A DNA stretch of 64,000 bases, taken from the NCBI GenBank assembly GCA_018335795.1, contig JAGXRP010000066.1, positions 1 through 64,000 on the forward strand. Direction: 5' to 3'. The notes beneath the pieces were generated by a model, which made no database searches, was not told the DNA's origin, and was given only the letters and a program-made list of their open reading frames with translations. The position numbers and the translations under genes were made by a program. Below, one piece after another: positions 49,386-64,000 of this stretch. The stretch's first letter is position 1. The number at the start of each line of letters is the position of its first letter. The stretch comes from Desulfobulbaceae bacterium (lineage in GTDB: Bacteria > Bacteroidota > Ignavibacteria > Kapaibacteriales > UBA2268).

Positions 49386-49818
49386 AACCTCTCCTTATAA
49401 TTTTAACAAATACATTCTAAAAAATTTACAATCAACTGAAAGTTAAATTAAGTAATTTGTGTTAATCTACAAAACATATTCATCATTTTTCAAAAAAAAA
49501 GTACAAAATATTTGTCATTTGTATATAAATTTCATATTTTACTTCTTGAAAAAGGGAAAATCTACCAAATTGTATTCTGTAAATATTTGTTCATTTTCTG
49601 ACTCAATTCAAATCAAAAAACATTGAATTCTATACCCTAAAAATCCTCATATTTAGTACTTTTCAACTACCTTTAAGGAAATTTACATTTTAGCATAGGA
49701 AAATTTTATCAAAATCGAGTATATAACCCTGAAATATCCGCTTTTAGTGTGCTTTTCTCTTTGCTATTTCAAGTATTTATATATATTTGTAAGTAGCAAT
49801 ATCTTTTTTGAGGAAAAT

Positions 49819-51975
49819 ATGCCCTTTTTCAAATTTTCACTGATTATGGTTGCAATACAATTATTCATACTAAGCGCTTACTCAGCAAACGATACGACTG
49901 ATTCCAAGTATGGTGTTTATGGTGGAATCAATCTAAATTTCCATTCAGCACAATTCACTAATTTACCCGGCATACCTAATTGTTGCCCCAGATTCGAATC
50001 CGGATTTGGGCTTGGATTCAACTTCGGTTTACTTTATGAACATAGGCTTAGTAATGTTCTCAGCTTGGGTGTTAGGTCGGGATTTCATTCCTTAAGCGGT
50101 ACCTTATCAACAGAGGAACCAACAACAGTTATCACACCGACCGGTCCCTTAGACGGCGTCTTTGAGCACACTGTCGAAAGTGCTTTCATGAACTTAGGTT
50201 TTGAACCTTCTCTCATCTATTCACTTACACCAAGATTCAATATCAGCTTAGGATTGAGAGCAGGGCAAAGTTTAACTTATACTTTCAGCCAAGCTGAGAC
50301 AATTATTCAACCTGATGGTGTTGGTACTTTTACGGATGAAGACGGTAACGACACCCGAAAACGAACCAGAAATGAATTTGATGGTGATTTGCCCAATGCA
50401 AACACCTTTCAGTTGGCATTGTTTTCAGGGCTGAGCTACGAGTTTCCTTTGAATTCGGACAACACATTGCGATTAGTCCCTGAATTATTTTATTACCACG
50501 GATTGTCCAATTTGGTAAAAGATACCGATTGGAAAGTCAATAGTTTGAGATTAACAGTCGCAATCAAATATGCTCCACTTACTAAGCCAGTCAAAACTGA
50601 TGTGTTCAAAAAGGAATTCAGAATTGATTCAGTCAGAATTGAATCCGATTTGATTACTGAAGTTACTTATAAACGTGGAATAGAAAACCTTGAAAATCAC
50701 ACAGGTGAAACTGATGTTGAAATCATCCATACGGCAATCATTTCACGGGTTGATACGCTCATGATACCCAAAACTTATGCATTAGACGGCGCTATCGAAG
50801 CTGTAGGTGTTGACTTAGCCGGAAATGAAATTCCCAATCCTATATTCAAAATCGAAGAATTCATTTCAAATAGACTTGACCCCCTCCTTAACTACGTCTT
50901 CTTCGAAGATAATTCGCATACTCTGCCCCTTCGATACAAGTCAATTAGCAAAGAAGAGGCGAGACAATTTGATTTGACCAACCTTTTCAGAGACTCCACC
51001 CTTCAAATCTATCATAATATACTGAATATTGTTGGTGAAAGATTGAACATGTATCCGACCGCTAAAGTTGTATTAATCGGTTGTAACTCAGATTTAGGAG
51101 CAGAAAGCAAAAACCTTGATTTATCACGTAAACGTGCCGAAACTGTAAGAGATTATCTTGTTAATGTGTGGAATATTAACCCTGACCGATTCAAAATTGA
51201 GGCTAAAAATTTATCTGATAAACCATCAATACCAAAGACAGAGCCTGACAAAATATCAGAAAATCGAAGAGTAGAAATTTATAGCGATGATTTAAGGATA
51301 TTAGAACCAATTTTTATCGAAAAAATTGACCGCACATCAAATCCGCCAATTGTCAGATTCAAACTTTCGGGACAATCTGATGCCGGGTTGAAATCCTGGG
51401 TGTTGAAAGCCTATCAAAACAGCGACGATGAGAATATTTTCACCAAATCCGGCGATAGGAATTTGGTCAAAAGCATTGATTGGGAATTAGCACAGTTCCA
51501 AAAGCTCATCCCCAAATCACCGGAACCACTGATATATTCATTAAGTTTAGTTGATAACCAAGGCAACGTTAAATTTATAGACAATCAGACGAAAGAAATC
51601 GAAGTAATGACTGTGCAGCACAAACGTACCGAACAAATCGGTGATTATGAAATCGAGCAATTCAGCTTAATTTTGTTCGATTTTGACAAACACGTCATTG
51701 CTGATAACGACAAAAAAATTATAGAATTCATCCGTAGCAGACTGAAAAATGAATCCGAATTGGAAATTATGGGCTATACTGACAGAACCGGAATCGCCGA
51801 CCACAACAAAAAGCTTTCCGAACGACGTGCCGAAGCGACAAGAATTGCACTGCAACGAGCGGATACCAAAGTAGTTGGCTTCGGCAGCGATGAATTACTA
51901 CATAACAATGAATTACCCGAAGGACGTTTCTATTGTAGAACCGTAAACATAATAGTGAAAACAAAAGTAAAATAA
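49819..51975 (+). CDS. OmpA-family outer-membrane protein with two OmpA-like domains
   Basis: Signal peptide MPFFKFSLIMVAIQLFILSAYS; barrel region; KVVLIGCNSDLGAESKNLDLSRKRAETVRDYLV...ENRRVEIY and LEIMGYTDRTGIADHNKKLSERRAEATRIAL. Start corrected to ATG 49819. Confidence 0.8.
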   Translation: MPFFKFSLIMVAIQLFILSAYSANDTTDSKYGVYGGINLNFHSAQFTNLPGIPNCCPRFESGFGLGFNFGLLYEHRLSNVLSLGVRSGFHSLSGTLSTEEPTTVITPTGPLDGVFEHTVESAFMNLGFEPSLIYSLTPRFNISLGLRAGQSLTYTFSQAETIIQPDGVGTFTDEDGNDTRKRTRNEFDGDLPNANTFQLALFSGLSYEFPLNSDNTLRLVPELFYYHGLSNLVKDTDWKVNSLRLTVAIKYAPLTKPVKTDVFKKEFRIDSVRIESDLITEVTYKRGIENLENHTGETDVEIIHTAIISRVDTLMIPKTYALDGAIEAVGVDLAGNEIPNPIFKIEEFISNRLDPLLNYVFFEDNSHTLPLRYKSISKEEARQFDLTNLFRDSTLQIYHNILNIVGERLNMYPTAKVVLIGCNSDLGAESKNLDLSRKRAETVRDYLVNVWNINPDRFKIEAKNLSDKPSIPKTEPDKISENRRVEIYSDDLRILEPIFIEKIDRTSNPPIVRFKLSGQSDAGLKSWVLKAYQNSDDENIFTKSGDRNLVKSIDWELAQFQKLIPKSPEPLIYSLSLVDNQGNVKFIDNQTKEIEVMTVQHKRTEQIGDYEIEQFSLILFDFDKHVIADNDKKIIEFIRSRLKNESELEIMGYTDRTGIADHNKKLSERRAEATRIALQRADTKVVGFGSDELLHNNELPEGRFYCRTVNIIVKTKVK

Positions 51976-52017
51976 TTTGTCTGATGGTTGCACTACTTAA
52001 GTGCTACCCATCTTAAT

Positions 52018-55000
52018 ATGGAGAAAAAAATGAAAAACCACATCAATAAAGAAAGCTTTTTCACCATAGCGCTACTTTTTATAGTATTGAGCGTAAATCA
52101 TGCAAACGGGCAAAGATTAATATTTTATGATATAGATATTACTGCTTTCCCAACTGTCAAAGCTAAGTTTTTTGCATTTGATGAGAATTGGGATATGATA
52201 AGACCTACTATTCCTGAACTGACTATCATTGAAAATGGCTCTGTACGTAATATCACCGGCTTATCTTGTCCACCTCCAAGCAAACCTCAAGACATTTCAT
52301 CCGTCTTAGTAATTGATGTCAGTGGCTCGATGAAGGGGGATAGATTACAAAATGCAAAATCGGCAGCAGGAGTTTGGACAAATGGAATACCTAATACAAG
52401 TGAATGCGCAATAGTAGCATTTTCATCCGAAAATTATTTAGTTCAAGATTTTACAAATGACAAATTAATACTTAATGAGAAAATACAATCTCTAAATGCT
52501 AATGGTGGAACCAATTATGAGGCTGCATTAATAAGTGAAGCCGCCGGTGGATTATTAATAAGTGGGAAAGGCAAAAATAAACCCGTTATTATTATGTTGA
52601 CTGATGGACAAACTGAAAGACCCAACATAGACTTAATTGTTGAAACCGCAAACCAACAAAACTGTGAGATTTATATAGTCACTCTTGGGATGGAATGTCC
52701 ACAGGTTTTAAAAGAAATTTCAGATAGAACAGGAGGTGTTTGGTATGAAAATATTTTAACTCAAGAAGAAGCGGAGTATGTTTACAGAAAGATATTAGGT
52801 ATTGTCCAAGGTGAAAAACCTTGTGAGATTGAATGGGAAAGCAAAGTACAATGTGAATTAGAAAATGTAAGTGTTGACCTACAGTTTAAAAATAAAATAT
52901 CTAAAAACAGCTACCAATTGCCAATTACTTCATTAGCTAAATTGGTTTTCGAGCCTGATTATATATACTTCCCCAATTCGGAAATTGGAGTAAAACGAGA
53001 CACCACGATTACCATAACAGCCATCAATGCAGATATGGAGGTGCTTTCTATATCTTCATCAAATCCTGCTTTTGAAATTATACCAAACTCGTTTAAAATC
53101 AAGCAGAACGAAAGTATTGATTTGACAGTTAGTTATTTACCAAATGAAAAAGGATATTTATTTTCAAAATTTGAAATTAATACTGACTTGTGTTTTAGTA
53201 CATTTTTTGCGAGTGGAGGTTTAAAAATTGGGCAACCTGAAATTAATACTTTAAAATTATTACATCCTAACGGGGGAGAAGAATTTATAGTTGGAAGTGA
53301 TACAATCATTACTTGGGAGGGTGTTACTCCTTCGGATACCTGCGTTTTGGAATATAGTATTGATTCGGGTAATTCTTGGAATTTGTTAACAGAACAGGCT
53401 TTCGGACTTAAATTTGATTGGCGAAATATTCCAGAACCTCCAAGTATAGATTGCCTAGTAAGAATTTATCAACCTATTCAAAAGGAAATATTAGGTAGTT
53501 TACCAATTATTGAATGGCAAAAAATATTTGGGGGTAGCAATTCAGATTTCGGAAATCACATAATTCAGACAAATGATGGAGGTTATATATTAGCAGGTTC
53601 CACAGAATCGGATGATTTCGGAATTCCATTTAATAAAGGGCGTAGTGATATAATTCTAATCAAAATCGATAAATTTGGAGAAACGCAATGGCTCAAGATT
53701 TTTGGTGGAAGTCATAATGATGGCGTAACAAAAATACTTCAAACTAGTGATATGGGTTATATTTTAACCGGCTACTCTCAATCAAATGATGGTGATATTT
53801 TAAATCATTTGGGCAATATGGATGTTTGGATTTTGAAATTGAATGCCGCCGGTGATATCGACTGGAGCCGGACTTATGGGGGCTCTAATTCCGAAATAGC
53901 AAATTCAATTCTCGAAACTTCAGATTTTGGATATATCGTAAGCGGTAGTACAGAGTCGGGCAATGGCGATATTACTAATAATAATGGAAAAACTGATGCA
54001 TGGGTCTTCAAACTTGACCCTATTGGAAATATAGAATGGCAGAGCACTTTTGGTGGTAGCTTAAACGATAATTTCTCATCATTGATTGAAACTTCCGACG
54101 GAGCATATATTGCTGTGGGTAATACAGAATCAAATGATTTCGACCTTACAGCCAATAAGGGTATGAACGACATCTGGGTAGTTAAAATAGCCCCGCCGGG
54201 ATTGATTTTATGGGAAAAAACATTTGGAGGAAGCAGGAATGACTTCGGTAAATCAATTATTGAATCACGAGATGGAATGTATTACATTGCCGGTACAGTT
54301 GAATCTGCGGATGGCGATATATCGGCAAGTAAAGGTAATCAGGATATTTGGCTTTTTAAAATAGACCCCACCGGAAACATAATATTTTGGGAAAAGAATT
54401 TTGGTGGAACTCAAAACGATATGGCTGCTCATATGATTCTAACCGAAGATGAGTATCTTGTAGTTGCTGCTTCGACAGGTTCTAACGATGGTGATATTAC
54501 AGAAAATAAAGGAATAATTCAAGGTGTTTTAGACTATTGGATTCTTAAAGTTGACTTAGACGGTGGATTGAATTGGCAGAAGACTTTTGGTGGACAATTC
54601 GAAGATAAAGCCGAATCAATTCAACAGACTAACGATAAGGGCTTCATACTTGCGGGCATGTCTCAATCAAATAACGGTGATGTAGCCGGACATAGAGGGG
54701 AGGAAGATATTTGGGTGATTAAATTATATCCGGATGAATTAATTTTCCAACAAGATACTTCAGATGCTTTATTTTCAATTGTTAAGCCAAATGGAATTGC
54801 AATAGATATTGATATGCTCCAAGTATTGGTAGGTTCTACTAAGGACTCAGTAGTGAATGAATTTGTGAGTAACGTTGGTTCTTGGAAATTCCGAGTTGAT
54901 TCCATTTATATTCAAGGAGCGGATGCCTCCGCATTTTCGCTCGTTTCGGGCTTCCCTGTTTATACAATTGAACAAAATGATAGCTATTTTGCCGAATTTC

Positions 55001-56109
55001 GATTCGTTCCCAAAAGAGTAGGTATTCATAGAGCTGAAATCGTTATCGTAACACAAGCTGAGATAATTATTCAAAACATAATCGGTGAAGGAGTAGAGCC
55101 AAAACTTCAAATCGTCAATTCATTAATTGATTTCGGAACAATTTATGTGGGGGAAATGGTTGACTCTTTGCAAGCTGTTACAGTCAAGAATATTGGAAAT
55201 GCACCACTCGAAATATTAGATACGAAGCATAATTATCCGAATGATGTAGATTTCACAACACTTGCCGGTGGTGGAAATTTCATACTCCAACCCGGTCAAG
55301 AAGCACTGATGGATTTTAGATTTACTGCAAATTCTCGCGGCAGAACAAGCGGAACACTGGAGTTTCTATACAATGGAGTAGGTAGCCCGGCTGTAGTGCA
55401 GCTTTTCGGCGAGGGAATTATAGATGCCGATTCCTCGGCAATCAGTCTCAAAGCATTAGATGCCGAAGGATACGCTGCAGATGCAGTTAAAGTCTATATT
55501 GTAGTAACTGACAGCTACTTAATGCAAATTTCCCGTACGGAGAGTTTCAGCTTAGAACTAAATTTTAATCCAAGTATGCTCTATCCGCTTGATTTCATCA
55601 TGGATTACATTGACGAACGCAATGCAAAAGTCAAAATTGAAGATTTATCAGCAGATGTTGAAAAAGGCGATACTCTTGCAACGGTCTGGTTCAGAGCAGG
55701 ACTTGGGAATGCCGAAATAAGCAAACTTGAATTGACAAACATCGAAGCAATTGGTGGCAACACAACTATTTCTCACGAAGACGGCACATTCAAACTTCTT
55801 GGCATCTGCTACGAAGGCGGCACCCGTCTATTCAATGCAAACAGCAAAGCCGGAATTGAAAGTGTGAATCCCAATCCGGCGGATAACTCAATTCAAATTA
55901 ATGTTTCATTTTCGGAAGCAGGTCAAACCGAAATTTTGCTCTATAACATAAAAGGCGAAATAGTCCGAACTATCTATAATGCCGACATTAGAAACGAGAA
56001 GTCAATCAGCTTGGATACCGATATATCGGATTTAGCAACCGGAAGCTACACATTGATTTTCAAATCGCCTACAATTATGCAAAAGACTCAGTTTTTGATC
56101 ATAAAATGA
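52018..56109 (+). CDS. vWA-domain secreted protein with seven tandem repeats, abnormal-spindle/choice-of-anchor-like region and T9SS sorting domain
   Basis: VLVIDVSGSMKGDRLQNAKSAA (MIDAS DxSxS); seven GGS-type repeats; C-terminal ESVNPNPADNSIQINVSFSEAGQTEILLYNIKGE...TQFLIIK. Confidence 0.8.
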   Translation: MEKKMKNHINKESFFTIALLFIVLSVNHANGQRLIFYDIDITAFPTVKAKFFAFDENWDMIRPTIPELTIIENGSVRNITGLSCPPPSKPQDISSVLVIDVSGSMKGDRLQNAKSAAGVWTNGIPNTSECAIVAFSSENYLVQDFTNDKLILNEKIQSLNANGGTNYEAALISEAAGGLLISGKGKNKPVIIMLTDGQTERPNIDLIVETANQQNCEIYIVTLGMECPQVLKEISDRTGGVWYENILTQEEAEYVYRKILGIVQGEKPCEIEWESKVQCELENVSVDLQFKNKISKNSYQLPITSLAKLVFEPDYIYFPNSEIGVKRDTTITITAINADMEVLSISSSNPAFEIIPNSFKIKQNESIDLTVSYLPNEKGYLFSKFEINTDLCFSTFFASGGLKIGQPEINTLKLLHPNGGEEFIVGSDTIITWEGVTPSDTCVLEYSIDSGNSWNLLTEQAFGLKFDWRNIPEPPSIDCLVRIYQPIQKEILGSLPIIEWQKIFGGSNSDFGNHIIQTNDGGYILAGSTESDDFGIPFNKGRSDIILIKIDKFGETQWLKIFGGSHNDGVTKILQTSDMGYILTGYSQSNDGDILNHLGNMDVWILKLNAAGDIDWSRTYGGSNSEIANSILETSDFGYIVSGSTESGNGDITNNNGKTDAWVFKLDPIGNIEWQSTFGGSLNDNFSSLIETSDGAYIAVGNTESNDFDLTANKGMNDIWVVKIAPPGLILWEKTFGGSRNDFGKSIIESRDGMYYIAGTVESADGDISASKGNQDIWLFKIDPTGNIIFWEKNFGGTQNDMAAHMILTEDEYLVVAASTGSNDGDITENKGIIQGVLDYWILKVDLDGGLNWQKTFGGQFEDKAESIQQTNDKGFILAGMSQSNNGDVAGHRGEEDIWVIKLYPDELIFQQDTSDALFSIVKPNGIAIDIDMLQVLVGSTKDSVVNEFVSNVGSWKFRVDSIYIQGADASAFSLVSGFPVYTIEQNDSYFAEFRFVPKRVGIHRAEIVIVTQAEIIIQNIIGEGVEPKLQIVNSLIDFGTIYVGEMVDSLQAVTVKNIGNAPLEILDTKHNYPNDVDFTTLAGGGNFILQPGQEALMDFRFTANSRGRTSGTLEFLYNGVGSPAVVQLFGEGIIDADSSAISLKALDAEGYAADAVKVYIVVTDSYLMQISRTESFSLELNFNPSMLYPLDFIMDYIDERNAKVKIEDLSADVEKGDTLATVWFRAGLGNAEISKLELTNIEAIGGNTTISHEDGTFKLLGICYEGGTRLFNANSKAGIESVNPNPADNSIQINVSFSEAGQTEILLYNIKGEIVRTIYNADIRNEKSISLDTDISDLATGSYTLIFKSPTIMQKTQFLIIK

Positions 56110-56263: not shown

Positions 56264-57406
56264 ATGAGCGAAATTGAAAACGGAGAAAAGCCGTTACTTT
56301 TGATTATTGATGATAGTAAAGAAAATCTTCATTTTCTTTGCGACATATTCGATGAATACCGCAAATCCGTTACTGTTAGCGGACTTGAAGGTATAAATTT
56401 GGCAAATAGTCTCAAGCCAGATTTGATTCTGCTTGATATACTTATGCCTGAAATTAGTGGTTTCGACGTCTGTAGGGCAATTAAAGAAAACCCCGACAAC
56501 AAAGATATCCCAATCATATTTCTTTCGGGCAAATCGAAATTAGAAGATGTCGTAAAGGGGCTAAAACTTGGCGCAGTAGATTATATTACTAAGCCTTTCG
56601 AGCAAGAAGAACTCAAAGTTCGTGTCAAGACCAATCTCGAACTCAAAGCATCTAAAGATTTGATTAAGCGGCAAAGTGAGAAATTAGCAGAGTTGAACGA
56701 AGATTTCAGGCATTTCTTGTCAATAGCAACTCATGATTTAAAAAACTCATTATTAGTCATACAAGGATTCACCAAACTTCTAACTGAGCGTTATCACAAA
56801 TTTTCAGACTCTGAAAAATTGGATTTGCTTTCGGATATTTCGTTCACCGGCGAAATGATGTTCAAGATAATTATGAATTTAAGTTATGTTACTCGTTTAG
56901 AAGAGGGTAAAGTCCAACCATATTATACAGAATTTGATATTAATTATTTATTAGATGATTCGATTAAATATTTTAAAGAAATCGCAAACAGCAAAAATAT
57001 TAATATTAATTATATTAATAAAATTAAACAATTAAGTGTTTTCCAAGATTTGTCATTGATTAAAGAATGTATTGATAATGTTTTATCAAATGCCATCAAA
57101 TTTTCACCATTCAAGACCCAAATTACTGTCATAGCTTATAGCGAATCTATCAACAAAGACATGCGGCAAATGTTTGTAGTCGAAGTAGAAGACGAAGGTC
57201 CAGGCATTAAGGAAGAAGAACAGGCATTACTTTTCAAGAAATTTGCACGATTGTCATCACCATCAACAAATCACGAAATTACAACCGGGCTTGGGTTGGC
57301 GATTACTAAAATGATTGTTGAATTGCTCAAAGGGGAACTTAGCTTTTCTTCACAATTTGGCAAGGGTACAAAATTTGTTCTCAAATTTCCCGTAAATGTT
57401 GATTAG
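56264..57406 (+). CDS. response regulator - histidine kinase hybrid
   Basis: LLIIDDSKENL...PDLILLDILMPEISGFDVCRAIK...KPFEQEELKVRV (receiver); SIATHDLKNSLLVIQGF (H-box); EDEGPGIKEEEQ, GLGLAITKMIVE (HATPase). Confidence 0.9.
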   Translation: MSEIENGEKPLLLIIDDSKENLHFLCDIFDEYRKSVTVSGLEGINLANSLKPDLILLDILMPEISGFDVCRAIKENPDNKDIPIIFLSGKSKLEDVVKGLKLGAVDYITKPFEQEELKVRVKTNLELKASKDLIKRQSEKLAELNEDFRHFLSIATHDLKNSLLVIQGFTKLLTERYHKFSDSEKLDLLSDISFTGEMMFKIIMNLSYVTRLEEGKVQPYYTEFDINYLLDDSIKYFKEIANSKNININYINKIKQLSVFQDLSLIKECIDNVLSNAIKFSPFKTQITVIAYSESINKDMRQMFVVEVEDEGPGIKEEEQALLFKKFARLSSPSTNHEITTGLGLAITKMIVELLKGELSFSSQFGKGTKFVLKFPVNVD

Positions 57407-57413
57407 TAAAACT

Positions 57414-60400
57414 CTATTCATAACTCAAGGTAAGCTCAACTCTGTTATTATTCAGCTTTTTCTCTGATTTGCTGTCAGCTATAGGATATAATGGACCTCG
57501 TCCACTTGAAAGTAATCGGCTTCTGTCTATTCCCTTATTATAGAGATATGAAACTACTTCTGCAGCACGTTTCAATGACACATCTAAGTTTTCTTGCATA
57601 GTGCCTGAATTATCCGAATGACCTTCAATTTTCAAAATCAATTTAGGATTAGCTTTCATATGCACTGCAATCTTGTCTAAATATAACTTCATTTCCTTAT
57701 CAAGAAAAGTTATACGAGATTTTTTGAATATCAAAGGACTAATTTTGCCGTGACCAATATCATATTTTGGTTCATCAATTACAGTACCAGCATTTATTGT
57801 CTTTTCAATTGTGCTATTCTTTTCGCCAACATTTGTAGAATCTTTCATTTCATCCATTTTCTTGATAATCTGTGTATGACGACTTGTAGCTAATCCTCCA
57901 ATCTCATCGTCGGAGCCAATAAATTCAAAATCATCTTTGTCATCTTGACTTGGAGCTACATCACTAATAATTGCGAAACTAATATTACCAACGTAGTCTC
58001 CATCTTTTGACGGTTTGATGCTGAACTCTATTTCGCTCGGGATTGAAATGCTATTTAATATCTTTAATTGGTTCGAATCCAACTGTGCAATATAGTCACC
58101 TACAGGTATTCCATTGAAAAAATATGAACCATCTGAGAAAACCAGAACGCTTGTCGAATAGCTAGAATCTTTGCTCTTTATATTAACCCTCATACCACCG
58201 AAGCCTTGATTTCCACTTTCTGTCTTTTTCGATACTGAACCTTCGACAAAACCACTAATGTGGCAAGCTATATCTATAGATTTGTATGAGTATGGCGATG
58301 CAATAAACGAAAACTCTGTTAATTTGGGGATTGTTGCAGGATTTGAAAAGGATTCTGTGTTAACTCGAATATTGTATTTTGAATTTGGGATTAGATTACT
58401 CAGTATTTTATATTTGCCAACATTGCTTTTATGCACTAATGAACCTAAAACGGAAAAATCGCCTTCTGGAATCAATTCGTCTTCATTATCGAATGTATTA
58501 TTATAATTCACATCATTATAAAATCTTATTGCCGCAGAGCTTTTGCCGTATATCGAAGAAGAACCCATTGAATTCAGAAATGACAGCCTAAGATTCTGAG
58601 AATCAAACTCAACCGAACCACTTAGGTCTGATGAATAAACTGCATCTCTGTCTTGGTTGAAATCAGCATTGGAATTACTTCTGAGAGCGGCTAAATTCAT
58701 GTTAATACCTATTTTCAAATTTGATAACTTGTTGTACGTGTAGTAAACATAATTGGCATTGATTGCAATGTTCTTTTCCAATTGCAACTGCGAACCTGCA
58801 GATATAGAATTAATTTCCCAATTATCGGGGTTAACATAAGTCGAAAAGTTTAAGTTGAGTCTCCTAAGCACACTTAACAATTTTGCAACATTACCGAATG
58901 AGTATGTAGCACTTATTGATAAATTCTGCGTTGAATTGCTTATTTTCATTGCAACATCTCGTATAGTTAAATTATGTCTGATTGAAAAATTCATTCCACC
59001 CATATAAAAATTAAGGTTTGAGTATATATTACTTGTATTGAAATTCAGGAAGGCTTCCCTCGAACCATTTACCGAGAGTGAAAAAGGTAATGAAAATACA
59101 CGGTTGAACGAAGCAATCAAATTTATAGAATTTTTCTTATGGTTATAATCAGAATTAGTTTCAAAATGTGTGTAGGAGATCTCGAAATTTCCCAAAGAGT
59201 TTGAAGGGAGTTTGATTCCGGCTTCAAATATTCCTCTGTTTGTTGCAGTAAGATTTAATAGAGTATTGTTGTAGATATTTACAGCTGCTTGGTTTATCAG
59301 ATAAACGTCATCTGATAACTCTTCCTTAATAGCCGAGATTGAAGTTGTTAGCCACGAAAAAACACCCATATTGATTGAAGCGTCGGCGATTTTCAATCCT
59401 GAATTCTCATCTTGACCGGCAGCAATTGAATATCTCAACTCACCGGGTACTAATAATTGAGATGGGATATTCAGTACTTTCTCTTCGGTTATGAATTCAC
59501 CTCTTTCCCCGTATAACTTCACTTTGATATTGGTCAATCCGTACGTGATTGGTATTTCGAATCTATAGTAGCCATTAATATCTGCTTTTTTGATTTCGTA
59601 TAGCTGATCTGCCAAATATAGTTCAACAGTCCAATCCGGTTCGATTATATCTTCAATCACATAATCTGTAAAAGCATTAGGTAACTTGGATGTTTCGTTT
59701 GTAATCTGGATTCCTTTCAGACTATAGTAGGGTTTTCGAAATCCTTTACCTGAAGAATTTCTGTATGCCATATTTTGGATGTTACCTAAGGATATAGACT
59801 GAACCCAGTCACTCTCGACCAAATATCTCCAACGAAAACGGTCCTGATAATCAAATTCATCAGAGTAAAATCTCCCGAATATATTATATTGAAATTCACC
59901 GCTGAACAATTCTAAACCTGTGTTCAGATTAAAATTATAACTCTGATAATTGGTACTCTGAGAAGTTCCAATAGTATAATCAAGTATGCCGCCGTTAAGT
60001 ATGGTGAATATTCGGTCGGATATAACCGGGAAATTAAACTCATCTTTTGAATTGGTTTCGAACAAGTTTATTCTTTGTTCAGTTCGGATTGCTCTGAGAA
60101 AGGGCAATTCGTAATCTGATTGAACTGTAATTGAAAGACTGTTGAATAGTGTTCTAAACTTCAATTTAAACAAATCTTCGAGCAAATCTGTCCTGATGAA
60201 TACCTGGAAATCGGTAGCAAACCACGAATCGTCATTCAGTTGAGATATTATGCCTTCAATATCTCTGATTTCCTTCAACTTGAAATCAACTACGAATGAG
60301 CTATCCGCATTATTTACATATCCCTCAAACCGCTTGTTTTCTTTGGAGATATAATAGATTTTGAAGTAGCTTAGAACTTCTTCAAAAGGCAAATAAATAC

Positions 60401-60557
60401 TATCATTTTGGATATAGACAATGAAATCGGACGAATACTTTTGATATACTAATCCGAAAATTGCTTCTTCCCTCGATTCACGTGCTTCAATATTAAAGCT
60501 CGCAAAAAATATTAAGGGCAGAAATAAAATTATGTATCCGCCCGAGTTTTTCATCAT
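57414..60557 (-). CDS. fimbrial-usher-like outer-membrane protein with C-terminal OmpA domain
   Basis: N-terminal LPFEEVLSYFKIYY...DDSWFATDFQVFIRTDLLEDLFKLKF...LPF (sigma-type usher-like); plug/barrel PDWTVELYLADQLYEIKKADINGYYRFEIPITYGLTNIKVKLYGERGEFITEEKVLNIPSQLLVPGELRYSIAAGQ; C-terminal LILKIEGHSDNSGTMQENLDVSLKRAAEVVSYLYNKGIDRSRLLSSGRG. Confidence 0.75.
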   Translation of the reverse strand: MMKNSGGYIILFLPLIFFASFNIEARESREEAIFGLVYQKYSSDFIVYIQNDSIYLPFEEVLSYFKIYYISKENKRFEGYVNNADSSFVVDFKLKEIRDIEGIISQLNDDSWFATDFQVFIRTDLLEDLFKLKFRTLFNSLSITVQSDYELPFLRAIRTEQRINLFETNSKDEFNFPVISDRIFTILNGGILDYTIGTSQSTNYQSYNFNLNTGLELFSGEFQYNIFGRFYSDEFDYQDRFRWRYLVESDWVQSISLGNIQNMAYRNSSGKGFRKPYYSLKGIQITNETSKLPNAFTDYVIEDIIEPDWTVELYLADQLYEIKKADINGYYRFEIPITYGLTNIKVKLYGERGEFITEEKVLNIPSQLLVPGELRYSIAAGQDENSGLKIADASINMGVFSWLTTSISAIKEELSDDVYLINQAAVNIYNNTLLNLTATNRGIFEAGIKLPSNSLGNFEISYTHFETNSDYNHKKNSINLIASFNRVFSLPFSLSVNGSREAFLNFNTSNIYSNLNFYMGGMNFSIRHNLTIRDVAMKISNSTQNLSISATYSFGNVAKLLSVLRRLNLNFSTYVNPDNWEINSISAGSQLQLEKNIAINANYVYYTYNKLSNLKIGINMNLAALRSNSNADFNQDRDAVYSSDLSGSVEFDSQNLRLSFLNSMGSSSIYGKSSAAIRFYNDVNYNNTFDNEDELIPEGDFSVLGSLVHKSNVGKYKILSNLIPNSKYNIRVNTESFSNPATIPKLTEFSFIASPYSYKSIDIACHISGFVEGSVSKKTESGNQGFGGMRVNIKSKDSSYSTSVLVFSDGSYFFNGIPVGDYIAQLDSNQLKILNSISIPSEIEFSIKPSKDGDYVGNISFAIISDVAPSQDDKDDFEFIGSDDEIGGLATSRHTQIIKKMDEMKDSTNVGEKNSTIEKTINAGTVIDEPKYDIGHGKISPLIFKKSRITFLDKEMKLYLDKIAVHMKANPKLILKIEGHSDNSGTMQENLDVSLKRAAEVVSYLYNKGIDRSRLLSSGRGPLYPIADSKSEKKLNNNRVELTLSYE

Positions 60558-61399
60558 ATTCCATCAAGGTCCACTACAAAGCTTTCGCTGAGAGGTTCGA
60601 ATGGAACTTTGAAATCATCCGGAACATCTTTATGTTCGTTAGACATTGAGAATTCTACTCTGTAACGACCATTATTGAAGAATTTTTTATCAAACTTGAA
60701 TGCTCGAGTGCCGGAAAAATAAAATGGGGTCATTTCTTTGGTTTCGGCAACTAATTTTCCTGACATATCAAACACTTTCATTGCCGATGTCCCCAAAAAT
60801 GGTGCATTACCGCCTTTCTGTACATCAACCATTATATTAACTTTCGCAGAATCGGCAAAAGCGCGAACCGGGCTAACGCTTATTTCACAATGTGTTTGCC
60901 CTTTATCAACAATGAGAGCTGATATTAGTGTGAAGTGGATGTCAATCTGGGCTGTAATTTTATCTGTATAAGTAGTGTCAACTTCTTGGGGAGGATTCTT
61001 AGATAAAACATGTATTCGCCCAAAGTAGGTACCATCAGGTGCGTCAGACATATTACCGAGCATGAATTTTACGACCTGCTCCTCATTTCCTTTCAGTAAC
61101 AGTCTTTTTGGGAACACTCTTACGTAAGGAGTAGCAGACCATTTTGCTTCGGGGATTGTATCTCCATATACTAAGCTGTAGTTGCCTAATGAGTCGTAAT
61201 TGGGGTATCCGAACATAATATCAATAATTACTTCTTTAGTTTCATTTGACATATTCAGAATTTTCAAATTACTTGCTCGATTTTTTTGGTTCAGAAATAC
61301 TGCTTGTGGATATAATCCAATTTGCGAAAGCATTTCGGTACTTAAAAAAATCAATGACAATACAATTATTATAGCAAATTTTTTCATCTCAAACTCCAA
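60554..61399 (-). CDS. PapD-like periplasmic pilus chaperone
   Basis: GLYPQAVFLNQKNRASNLKILNMSNETKEVII...YVRVFPKRLLLKGNEEQVVKFML; 4-nt overlap with the usher gene; internal ATG (MKKFAIII) may be the true start. Confidence 0.75.
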   Translation of the reverse strand: MEFEMKKFAIIIVLSLIFLSTEMLSQIGLYPQAVFLNQKNRASNLKILNMSNETKEVIIDIMFGYPNYDSLGNYSLVYGDTIPEAKWSATPYVRVFPKRLLLKGNEEQVVKFMLGNMSDAPDGTYFGRIHVLSKNPPQEVDTTYTDKITAQIDIHFTLISALIVDKGQTHCEISVSPVRAFADSAKVNIMVDVQKGGNAPFLGTSAMKVFDMSGKLVAETKEMTPFYFSGTRAFKFDKKFFNNGRYRVEFSMSNEHKDVPDDFKVPFEPLSESFVVDLDGI

Positions 61400-61447: not shown

Positions 61448-61900
61448 TTAATTGTCCACATATTCTACTGCAATTTCGGGGTCTAATTTATAAATGCCCG
61501 ATTGTGAATTTGACAATACTTCAATTGATAGAACTTTAATAGTCACAATGTATGTACTTTGCTCACTGACATAAATACTTGATTCGTGAAATGGAAATTC
61601 AAAACCACTAATTGGTCCTGTTTTCCATTCGGTGTTGACTTTGATAAACTGATTTCCTGTATCCTTCAGTTTTGTAATTCTAATTGGACGGTCTTTTTGG
61701 CACTTAATTACAAATTTAATCACCTGTTCATCATCTGCGAATACTCGTTTTGTACCGGCTGGAATACTTTCAATGTTGAGATTATCAATTATAACTATTG
61801 ATAACGCATCTTTCTCATTAACATCAAATGCAAAACACACATGTTGATTAATAAAACAAGCGAGTAACAACGTTAAAAATATTTTTATTATTCTTTTCAT
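61448..61900 (-). CDS. secreted beta protein, putative minor pilin/adaptor
   Basis: Signal peptide MKRIIKIFLTLLLACFINQHVCFAF; C-terminal beta strand IYKLDPEIAVEYVDN; immediately upstream of chaperone-usher genes. Confidence 0.55.
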   Translation of the reverse strand: MKRIIKIFLTLLLACFINQHVCFAFDVNEKDALSIVIIDNLNIESIPAGTKRVFADDEQVIKFVIKCQKDRPIRITKLKDTGNQFIKVNTEWKTGPISGFEFPFHESSIYVSEQSTYIVTIKVLSIEVLSNSQSGIYKLDPEIAVEYVDN

Positions 61901-61910
61901 TTTTGTTAAT

Positions 61911-61942
61911 AAATGCACCCATATTTGACTATGGGTGCATTT
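61911..61942 (-). promoter_or_regulatory. perfect 13-bp intercistronic stem-loop
   Basis: AAATGCACCCATA-TTTGAC-TATGGGTGCATTT, perfect inverted repeat between two pilin-operon genes. Confidence 0.8.
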
Positions 61943-61960: not shown

Positions 61961-62443
61961 TCACAAACCCTCGTAACAGTATTCTATACCTAATTCGTAT
62001 TCTTTCAATCCAATAGTCGCTGTGCTTGCATCAATTTCGTCGAGCTTATAAAATACATCGAAGAATGATTCCGCAGGAAAATCAGGGATTGTAAAGACTC
62101 CTGTATTACCCGGAACCGGCAAATTGCCAGGTCCGTACCACGCTCCCGAAAGAACAGGGTCACCCGGGTCTTCAGGTAATGCAATAGGACCTAAAAAGTT
62201 AATTTGGACATTTCTACCCGGTTCGCCTGCGATTTTGAAAATCCATTCATTGTCGGCAGTTAGAATTCTTGCTTGACCTTGAATCAATTCGAATAACGAA
62301 ATACTGAATGGTGCTGTTACATTCAGAGGCACGATAACTGTAGCGGTCATAGTACCAACTTCACCTACGCTCTGGTTATGTGTTTGTGCGAGCACACTAC
62401 CCGAAAGTAGTAAAAAGACCAAACAACAAGCTATCTTTCTCAT
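61961..62443 (-). CDS. DUF4402-like pilin subunit
   Basis: Signal peptide; GEVGTMTATVIVPLNVTAPFSISLFELIQGQARILTADNEWIFKIAGEPGRNVQINF. Confidence 0.65.
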   Translation of the reverse strand: MRKIACCLVFLLLSGSVLAQTHNQSVGEVGTMTATVIVPLNVTAPFSISLFELIQGQARILTADNEWIFKIAGEPGRNVQINFLGPIALPEDPGDPVLSGAWYGPGNLPVPGNTGVFTIPDFPAESFFDVFYKLDEIDASTATIGLKEYELGIEYCYEGL

Positions 62444-62474: not shown

Positions 62475-62981
62475 TTAAAGATTTCTGTATTTGCCTCTGG
62501 CATTGACAGTAAATGTTTTTACTCCAACAGAAGTGGCATTTATAGCATCTATTTCTGTAATTTTGAATGTAATCCAACCAATATCTCTTGGTGAATTTTC
62601 CCAATACCAATTTTGATTTAACGGATATCCCGGGAATGAGAATGTCATAGGAGGCATTTCTTCGTAAAATTCCCACCAACCAACAATTTTAACTCCATCA
62701 ACGTCTGCCGGTTTGTAAAGATTGAAATCAACAATATATGGCGCTTCTCTACCCATTTCGAATAACAAAATTCCTTCGGGAGGAGTGAGTATTCTTTTTT
62801 GTCCAAATATTGCTTCAGGAACAGGATTGCCATTTGGGATATTGGCTGTTATATCGACAATATAGAATGGTTTAATTACTTTTGCTGTCAAAGTGCCACT
62901 TTCAGGAACCGGTGTGTTGTGTTGAGCTAATAAACACCCAAATGCTCCCAAGAAAACGATAAAAACGATAAGCTTTTTCAT
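62475..62981 (-). CDS. DUF4402-like pilin subunit
   Basis: Signal peptide MKKLIVFIVFLGAFGCLLAQ; VPESGTLTAKVIKPFYIVDIT; C-terminal TFTVNARGKYRNL. Start corrected to the internal ATG. Confidence 0.6.
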   Translation of the reverse strand: MKKLIVFIVFLGAFGCLLAQHNTPVPESGTLTAKVIKPFYIVDITANIPNGNPVPEAIFGQKRILTPPEGILLFEMGREAPYIVDFNLYKPADVDGVKIVGWWEFYEEMPPMTFSFPGYPLNQNWYWENSPRDIGWITFKITEIDAINATSVGVKTFTVNARGKYRNL

Positions 62982-63056
62982 ATTACTCTCCATAAATAAA
63001 TTTTTTAATATTAATTTTTTAATACAATTGGAAAATTTTTGAAGTATTTTCCGAAC

Positions 63057-63593
63057 TTATATGTTGTGGTATTGTGCTGAAACTTTTTGCACGAACCTTC
63101 TATAGCCCGGTTCTGCATTCTCGTACGCCCAAACCCAATTGTAATCAATGTGCAAATAATACTTACCTGTAGTACTCAAACTTACAATTTCCTTACCGGC
63201 GCTAAAATTCAGAATAGGAATGCTTTGAAGTGGTGTACCAAGAGGTGGTTTAGGGGTACCTCTTAGAACGAAATTAATTTCAACGTTGTCTTGAATAGTT
63301 TCAAATTCGATTGATAATTCGATTGCACTTCCTGCCTCCCCTGAATATGTAAAGTAACTTCTTTTATCCGAATCTTCATGTTCATGAGTTCCTAAATTAT
63401 ATTTTGAACCAACCGGGACAGTTGGGAAATTCAGGAAATCATCATGAACATTAGGGCTTACAGATAGCGGAATTATAATATGGCAGACTAAATTGCCCGT
63501 TTCAGGAACCGAAGAATTGAAATTTACGTCTTGGGCATTTACATAAGCGATTGCCCCGAACATAAGTATTAATATTAAGATGCTTTGTTTCAT
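63057..63593 (-). CDS. DUF4402-like pilin subunit
   Basis: Signal peptide; VPETGNLVCHIIIPLSVSPNV; C-terminal QKVSAQYHNI. Confidence 0.6.
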   Translation of the reverse strand: MKQSILILILMFGAIAYVNAQDVNFNSSVPETGNLVCHIIIPLSVSPNVHDDFLNFPTVPVGSKYNLGTHEHEDSDKRSYFTYSGEAGSAIELSIEFETIQDNVEINFVLRGTPKPPLGTPLQSIPILNFSAGKEIVSLSTTGKYYLHIDYNWVWAYENAEPGYRRFVQKVSAQYHNI

Positions 63594-63653: not shown

Positions 63654-64000
63654 TTATAAGTTACTATACTTAGCGTCAACGTTAATTGTAAATACTTTTG
63701 TACCATTTGAAGTTGCCAAAGTGGCATCGACATTTGAAGTAGTGTAAACAACTACTGCTTTGCCATCATTGTCTAATGTGACTGTGCCTGTACCTGTCCA
63801 TGCGCCGTTAAGTACTACACCATCAACTGCATTAGGTCCGGTTCCGTTAATATCTACATCATATGGTAGATTTCCATATGTTGCTTCACCTTGGAGAGTA
63901 AATGTAATGTTTGCAACTATTGGTTTTACAAAACCGGTAATTACAGCACCGAGGTCAACGTCAGCTGTTTTAGTCCAAGTCAATGGTTGTATTACTGCTA
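63654..64000 (-). CDS. DUF4402-like pilin subunit, partial (runs off window end)
   Basis: Open frame AVIQPLTWTKTADVDLGAVITGFVKPIVANITFTLQGEATYGNLPYDVDINGTGP...KVFTINVDAKYSNL; the track's TTG start is probably internal. Confidence 0.7.
   Translation of the reverse strand, partial: AVIQPLTWTKTADVDLGAVITGFVKPIVANITFTLQGEATYGNLPYDVDINGTGPNAVDGVVLNGAWTGTGTVTLDNDGKAVVVYTTSNVDATLATSNGTKVFTINVDAKYSNL

Follow-up and report, generated by a model that had tools for sequence, protein, structure and literature searches.

A divergent pilus usher with a C-terminal OmpA domain points to an exchangeable periplasmic docking module in Bacteroidota

Introduction

Why would a pilus usher end in a peptidoglycan-binding domain? 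To our knowledge, the outer-membrane ushers known so far have nothing of their own that ties them to the wall, and bearing the pull on a pilus is therefore left to the membrane. The question is raised by one gene in the window, the stretch of 64,000 nucleotides analysed here, which lies in contig C66 of a genome of 3.5 Mb (82 contigs, 99.9% complete). The original prediction, made from the letters and the open reading frames, was that this gene encodes an usher-like barrel carrying a C-terminal OmpA domain, which would anchor the pilus assembly platform to the cell wall, an architecture thought to be undescribed.

Results

The fusion gene is an open reading frame with an ATG start, encoding 1047 residues (57414-60557, minus strand, as are all the parts of it given below); its coordinates confirm the predicted 4-nt overlap with the upstream gene for a PapD-like chaperone. 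The signal peptide region (about residues 1-25, 60483-60557) was recognised by its hydrophobic N-terminus and by a helix at residues 8-20 in an AlphaFold model of the protein (mean pLDDT 77, pTM 0.53). In this model, it is followed by a folded N-terminal periplasmic domain (about residues 30-150, 60108-60470), barrel strands 1-6 (residues 187-286, 59700-59999), which were also aligned with Escherichia coli K-12 ushers, a plug domain (residues 294-349, 59511-59678), which aligns with the FimD-type usher plug, and the remaining barrel (residues 355-661, 58575-59495), which Foldseek matches also cover. Modelling had been proposed as a check for a barrel with plug, and the modelled order, six barrel strands, the plug and about 19 more strands, is that of FimD and PapC.

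Two Ig/CnaB-like domains come next in the model (residues 673-866, 57960-58541), with weak SdrD_B and CarboxypepD_reg matches and weak CnaB-type Pfam matches at residues 780-826; judged from the model, they are the counterpart of the usher C-terminal domains. Because of usher topology, the whole segment after the barrel should be periplasmic. A linker predicted to be disordered (residues 868-935, about 67 residues, 57753-57956; pLDDT <50, variable across relatives) separates them from the OmpA peptidoglycan-binding domain (residues 938-1047, 57417-57746), which was assigned from Pfam, PDB sequence matches, conservation and a Foldseek match to 3td5. The OmpA domain had initially been contrasted with the small beta-sandwich ends of classical ushers; the fusion stands, but not the replacement, since the OmpA domain is added after two Ig-like domains.

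The Pfam usher model PF00577 did not match the window protein at E-values up to 1, and it found nothing in 199 genomes of the same class. The model thus misses the whole class, and such systems are therefore likely to be unannotated. In the absence of a direct match, we filed the window protein as a distant usher homologue and not as a direct member of PF00577. The link to the family was obtained by transitivity: within a small local set, a Balneolaceae protein (L077) is matched by the usher part of the window sequence with an E-value of 2e-76, and this protein in turn matches PF00577 at 1e-14 (54.8 bits, cut-off 27.1). Of the 32 aligned family members, 4 match PF00577.

Profile comparison led to the same assignment. 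When the 32-row alignment was compared by hhalign with the seven ushers of E. coli K-12 (FimD, HtrE, SfmD, YbgQ, ElfC, YehB and YraJ), the match had a probability of 98.5% (E=2.2e-15) over 515 columns. Single-sequence hhalign comparisons with LptD and FhuA gave nothing, and neither did those with EcpC and an Acinetobacter usher fragment. Single sequences being uninformative, reversed and shuffled profiles were chosen as controls; the reversed profile reached 6.2% and five column-shuffled profiles at most 0.9% (range over all controls 0.1-6.2%). The Acinetobacter usher, a broken fragment that was the single CsuD-type stand-in for the sigma-type resemblance suggested originally, yielded no usable match. 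No significant match was obtained when the window N-domain was compared by profile with that of the K-12 ushers, nor a decisive one with the C-terminal domains alone. A search of PDB sequences with the usher profile (hmmsearch) returned no match, so that solved ushers are not reached by sequence alone. They were reached by fold: the best 19 Foldseek matches of the model in the PDB are all FimD or PapC, with E-values down to 2.4e-32; unspecific barrels come next, near 1e-7, along with OmpA domains such as 3td5. The barrel is therefore an usher by transitivity, profile comparison and fold, which together rule out another kind of barrel, and all ushers compared are only distant relatives of its family. 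The predicted usher-like barrel was borne out in this way; of the profile matches proposed as checks, that to PF00691 was found and the direct one to PF00577 was not.

The genes upstream, all on the minus strand, are those of a chaperone-usher system. The chaperone (281 residues, 60554-61399) matches EcpB with an hhalign probability of 77% and the seven K-12 chaperones with 62%, and PapD_N is weakly matched by 4 of its 19 orthologues. Beyond it lie five small secreted proteins, one of them subunit-like (156 residues, 61448-61918) and the others four pilin-like subunits of 160 (61961-62443), 172 (62475-62993), 178 (63057-63593) and 148 residues; the last was identified as an open reading frame (63654-64000) whose 5' end lies beyond the window (L009:3655-4101), and its place and C-terminal motif match the first subunit of the relatives L039 and L040. 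Iterated HMMs tie the window subunit-like proteins, among them those of 156, 172 and 178 residues, to subunits of related operons. DUF4402 was matched by 18/30 aligned relatives of the subunit-like proteins, including relatives of the 172-residue protein. A fold search of the PDB with the model of the 160-residue protein (AlphaFold pLDDT 85) gave, among its first 40 matches, 38 to subunits or adhesins of chaperone-usher pili, including FimA, FimG, CfaB, Caf1, PapA and Csu, with marginal E-values starting at 1.5e-3. The relatives read show the same gene order, subunits then chaperone then usher, wherever the contig extends far enough. As a complete chaperone-usher set, the operon is moderately supported by the chaperone and subunit evidence taken alone and strongly supported as an operon conserved across genomes.

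Hybrid histidine kinases and a LuxR-type response regulator flank the pilus operon (56264-57406, plus strand, in the window; L009:4907-11325, minus strand, just past its end). Response regulators were also found near the ushers of L044, L048 and L052, and such flanking genes may regulate the pilus operon. Further along the window (49747-56109, plus strand), a barrel protein of the outer membrane that matches OmpA twice adjoins a 1373-residue protein, which has a type IX secretion tail besides VWA and ASH-like domains.

The C-terminal OmpA domain was confirmed by PF00691, which matches residues 952-1039 (E=1.1e-14, 55 bits, cut-off 27.2). OmpA domains hold diaminopimelate with an Asp and an Arg. 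Alignment with the Acinetobacter OmpA domain (3td3-3td5 series) predicts that the corresponding pair in the window protein is D982 and R997, 15 residues apart. This pair is kept in 16 of the 17 OmpA-type ushers, and in L054 the Asp is replaced by Glu. The linker ahead of the domain ranges from 46 to 107 residues and has 10% identity across relatives, against 37-38% for the flanking domains, as expected for a flexible tether.

Full-length homologues with the same architecture were found in many independent genomes. Ushers of this kind occur in 16/55 genomes searched in the GTDB family, and the survey of relatives that had been proposed found an OmpA domain on 16 further full-length homologues there, beside the window protein; the relatives with this architecture that bear names are MAGs labelled Candidatus Kapabacteria, Kapaibacterium or Ignavibacteria, and the window organism probably belongs with them. 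Because the architecture recurs in this way, an assembly error or a chance fusion is ruled out, and the usher-OmpA fusion is real and old. The contig profile search was run with an 8-row alignment subset, the 20-row alignment being too diverse, and a contig search with the single window protein as query found nothing. The window genome has one usher of this kind, and the other ten matches in it cover only the OmpA domain. A same-genus usher that is 58% identical (L040:4927-8037, minus strand) lacks the OmpA domain; the Ig-like domain before it is present twice instead.

Other modules occupy the same position elsewhere in the phylum. Matches were obtained in 92 of 398 sampled genomes and 36 of 174 genera, which means that about a quarter of the sampled phylum genomes have chaperone-usher systems undetected by the standard model. 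The 100 related ushers compared were not sampled at random, being the best matches together with loci already retrieved. An additional C-terminal module is present in 79 of them (SPOR in 37, one of them with LysM; TPR in 23; OmpA in 18; a repeated Ig-like domain in one) and absent from 21. A scan of 51 C-terminal extensions detected SPOR in 30 and TPR_2 in 19. The SPOR and LysM combination is found in L075, and the Bacteroidales MAG L080 has its own OmpA domain (PF00691, 1e-20), independent of the window group. Some ushers end in arrays of several SPOR domains, with more than 600 residues of extension (L146:2061-6575 and L151:2175-6647, minus strand; L115:1139-5260, plus strand; L117:1-4122, minus strand). 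Local HMMs, seeded from segments that Pfam had confirmed, served to label the modules on a tree of the 100 usher regions, and this label changes at least 23 times, compared with 53 for shuffled labels; by module, the changes number 3 for OmpA, 16 for SPOR and 12 for TPR. For OmpA, the simplest reading is two gains and one loss, which is probably what happened.

The folds of SPOR, OmpA and LysM are unrelated, and what they share is the binding of peptidoglycan; their occurrence at the same usher position is the strongest argument for wall anchoring. Together with the retained Asp/Arg pair and the long, non-conserved linker, it makes the originally suggested anchoring to the cell wall the best-supported function of the domain. 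The usher C-terminus is best read as an exchangeable periplasmic docking module, of which wall binding seems to be the commonest use. A clamp would not be needed in every system, since L040 has lost the OmpA domain and 21/100 ushers have no module.

The TPR class has a different companion. Unexpectedly for a pilus usher, an exported FliG-like protein is encoded directly after 23/23 testable TPR ushers, as opposed to 0/60 other ushers (0/17 for the OmpA ushers), and all eight phylogenetically independent pairs agree on this association (8/8). The neighbour, of about 610-640 residues and apparently exported, matches FliG_M, FliG_C and MgtE_N, with FliG_C down to 2e-12 (L141:810-2633, minus strand; L143:5937-7772 and L085:5900-7804, plus strand; and 20 more loci). 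A small lipoprotein-like gene was seen behind the FliG-like gene (L141:293-769, minus strand; L143:7816-8289, plus strand); its TPR segment resembles that of the usher and may duplicate the docking module. A separate SPOR protein acting in trans was looked for beside TPR ushers, and none was found. We know of no wall ligand bound by the TPR class, which counts against the wall clamp as a general reading. The constant FliG-like neighbour of the TPR ushers argues that the position is a docking port and does not serve wall binding alone.

Discussion

Usher homology and fold, the OmpA domain, the conserved binding residues, the operon and the module exchange were all established computationally. 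From these data, we put at roughly three in four the probability that the window protein is a divergent chaperone-usher pilus usher covalently equipped with a peptidoglycan clamp, its C-terminus being an exchangeable docking module. We infer a working cycle in which the chaperone would fold the subunits and hand them to the usher, which would polymerise them through its barrel of about 24 strands by donor-strand exchange and so produce a pilus. From the end of the two Ig-like domains in the periplasm, a flexible linker of about 67 residues would lead to the OmpA domain, predicted to clamp peptidoglycan diaminopimelate via Asp982 and Arg997. The clamp would fix the assembly platform against the wall during a normal usher cycle; with the platform held there, the wall would take up pilus load that the outer membrane would otherwise bear alone. 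Relatives fill this position with SPOR, with SPOR and LysM, or with a TPR module linked to the exported FliG-like protein.

The domain might instead be a general envelope staple, with a real usher serving as its membrane anchor in the manner of OmpA or Pal and without a part in pilus mechanics. OmpA domains do stabilise the envelope generally in OmpA and Pal, and the window domain resembles those of YiaD and the Pal type. However, the genome has about ten other OmpA-domain proteins for such a role, the fusion occurs only in the pilus operon and other modules replace OmpA in relatives, which makes the staple an unlikely explanation.

The module might also serve assembly or positioning and not load, keeping the usher at sites of peptidoglycan remodelling or docking a partner, with wall contact only as the means. 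SPOR domains recognise the denuded glycan of division sites, and the invariable FliG-like neighbour of the TPR ushers fits the docking of a partner. OmpA domains, on the other hand, bind the general peptide stem of peptidoglycan and are not site-specific, and the window operon, like those of all 17 OmpA ushers tested, has no FliG-like neighbour; we find a role in assembly or positioning instead of load bearing improbable. Finally, a barrel other than an usher, or a fusion created by faulty assembly or gene calling, is scarcely credible: the silence of PF00577 on the window protein and on 199 genomes of the class speaks for it, and the transitive Pfam match, the controlled profiles, the fold, the operon and the fusions in many genomes speak against it.

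Peptidoglycan clamping thus remains the preferred reading for the window usher. More broadly, and tentatively, the data may describe a large, mostly unannotated usher lineage of Bacteroidota (in the GTDB sense) whose C-terminus is an exchangeable docking port, either to the wall through independently recruited OmpA, SPOR or LysM domains or, via TPR, to a dedicated exported FliG-like partner. A wall-binding domain on an usher, of several unrelated kinds at the same place, makes the envelope anchoring of chaperone-usher pili directly testable.

In the literature searched, which left most subscription journals outside so that novelty is unproven, no paper joins an usher with an OmpA, SPOR or other wall-binding domain, in line with the earlier view that the architecture is undescribed. 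The only domain-fused usher that we found described is CupB3, the P-usher of Pseudomonas aeruginosa, whose N-terminal POTRA domain is used in CupB5 secretion (PMC3031594). CupB3 and the window protein are both ushers with a fused periplasmic domain, but the extra domain of the window usher is C-terminal and predicted to bind the wall. PG1058/PorE of the type IX secretion system is likewise part of a Bacteroidota envelope machine, an otherwise unrelated one, and its C-terminal OmpA domain has been proposed to bridge the outer membrane and the wall (PMC5053529); the NCBIfam PorE match of the window protein falls on the OmpA domain. With OmpA and YiaD-type proteins, the window usher has in common an outer-membrane anchor, a linker and an OmpA domain with the Asp/Arg pair, whereas their anchor is a small barrel or a lipid and its membrane part is a pilus usher. 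With the FimD and PapC ushers of PF00577, it shares the fold, the plug after strand 6 and the operon partners, and it differs from them by a sequence below the Pfam threshold and by CnaB-like C-terminal domains followed by a linker and an OmpA domain. If the proposed lineage is real, Bacteroidota pili would be mechanically coupled to the envelope, unlike the ushers described from Proteobacteria.
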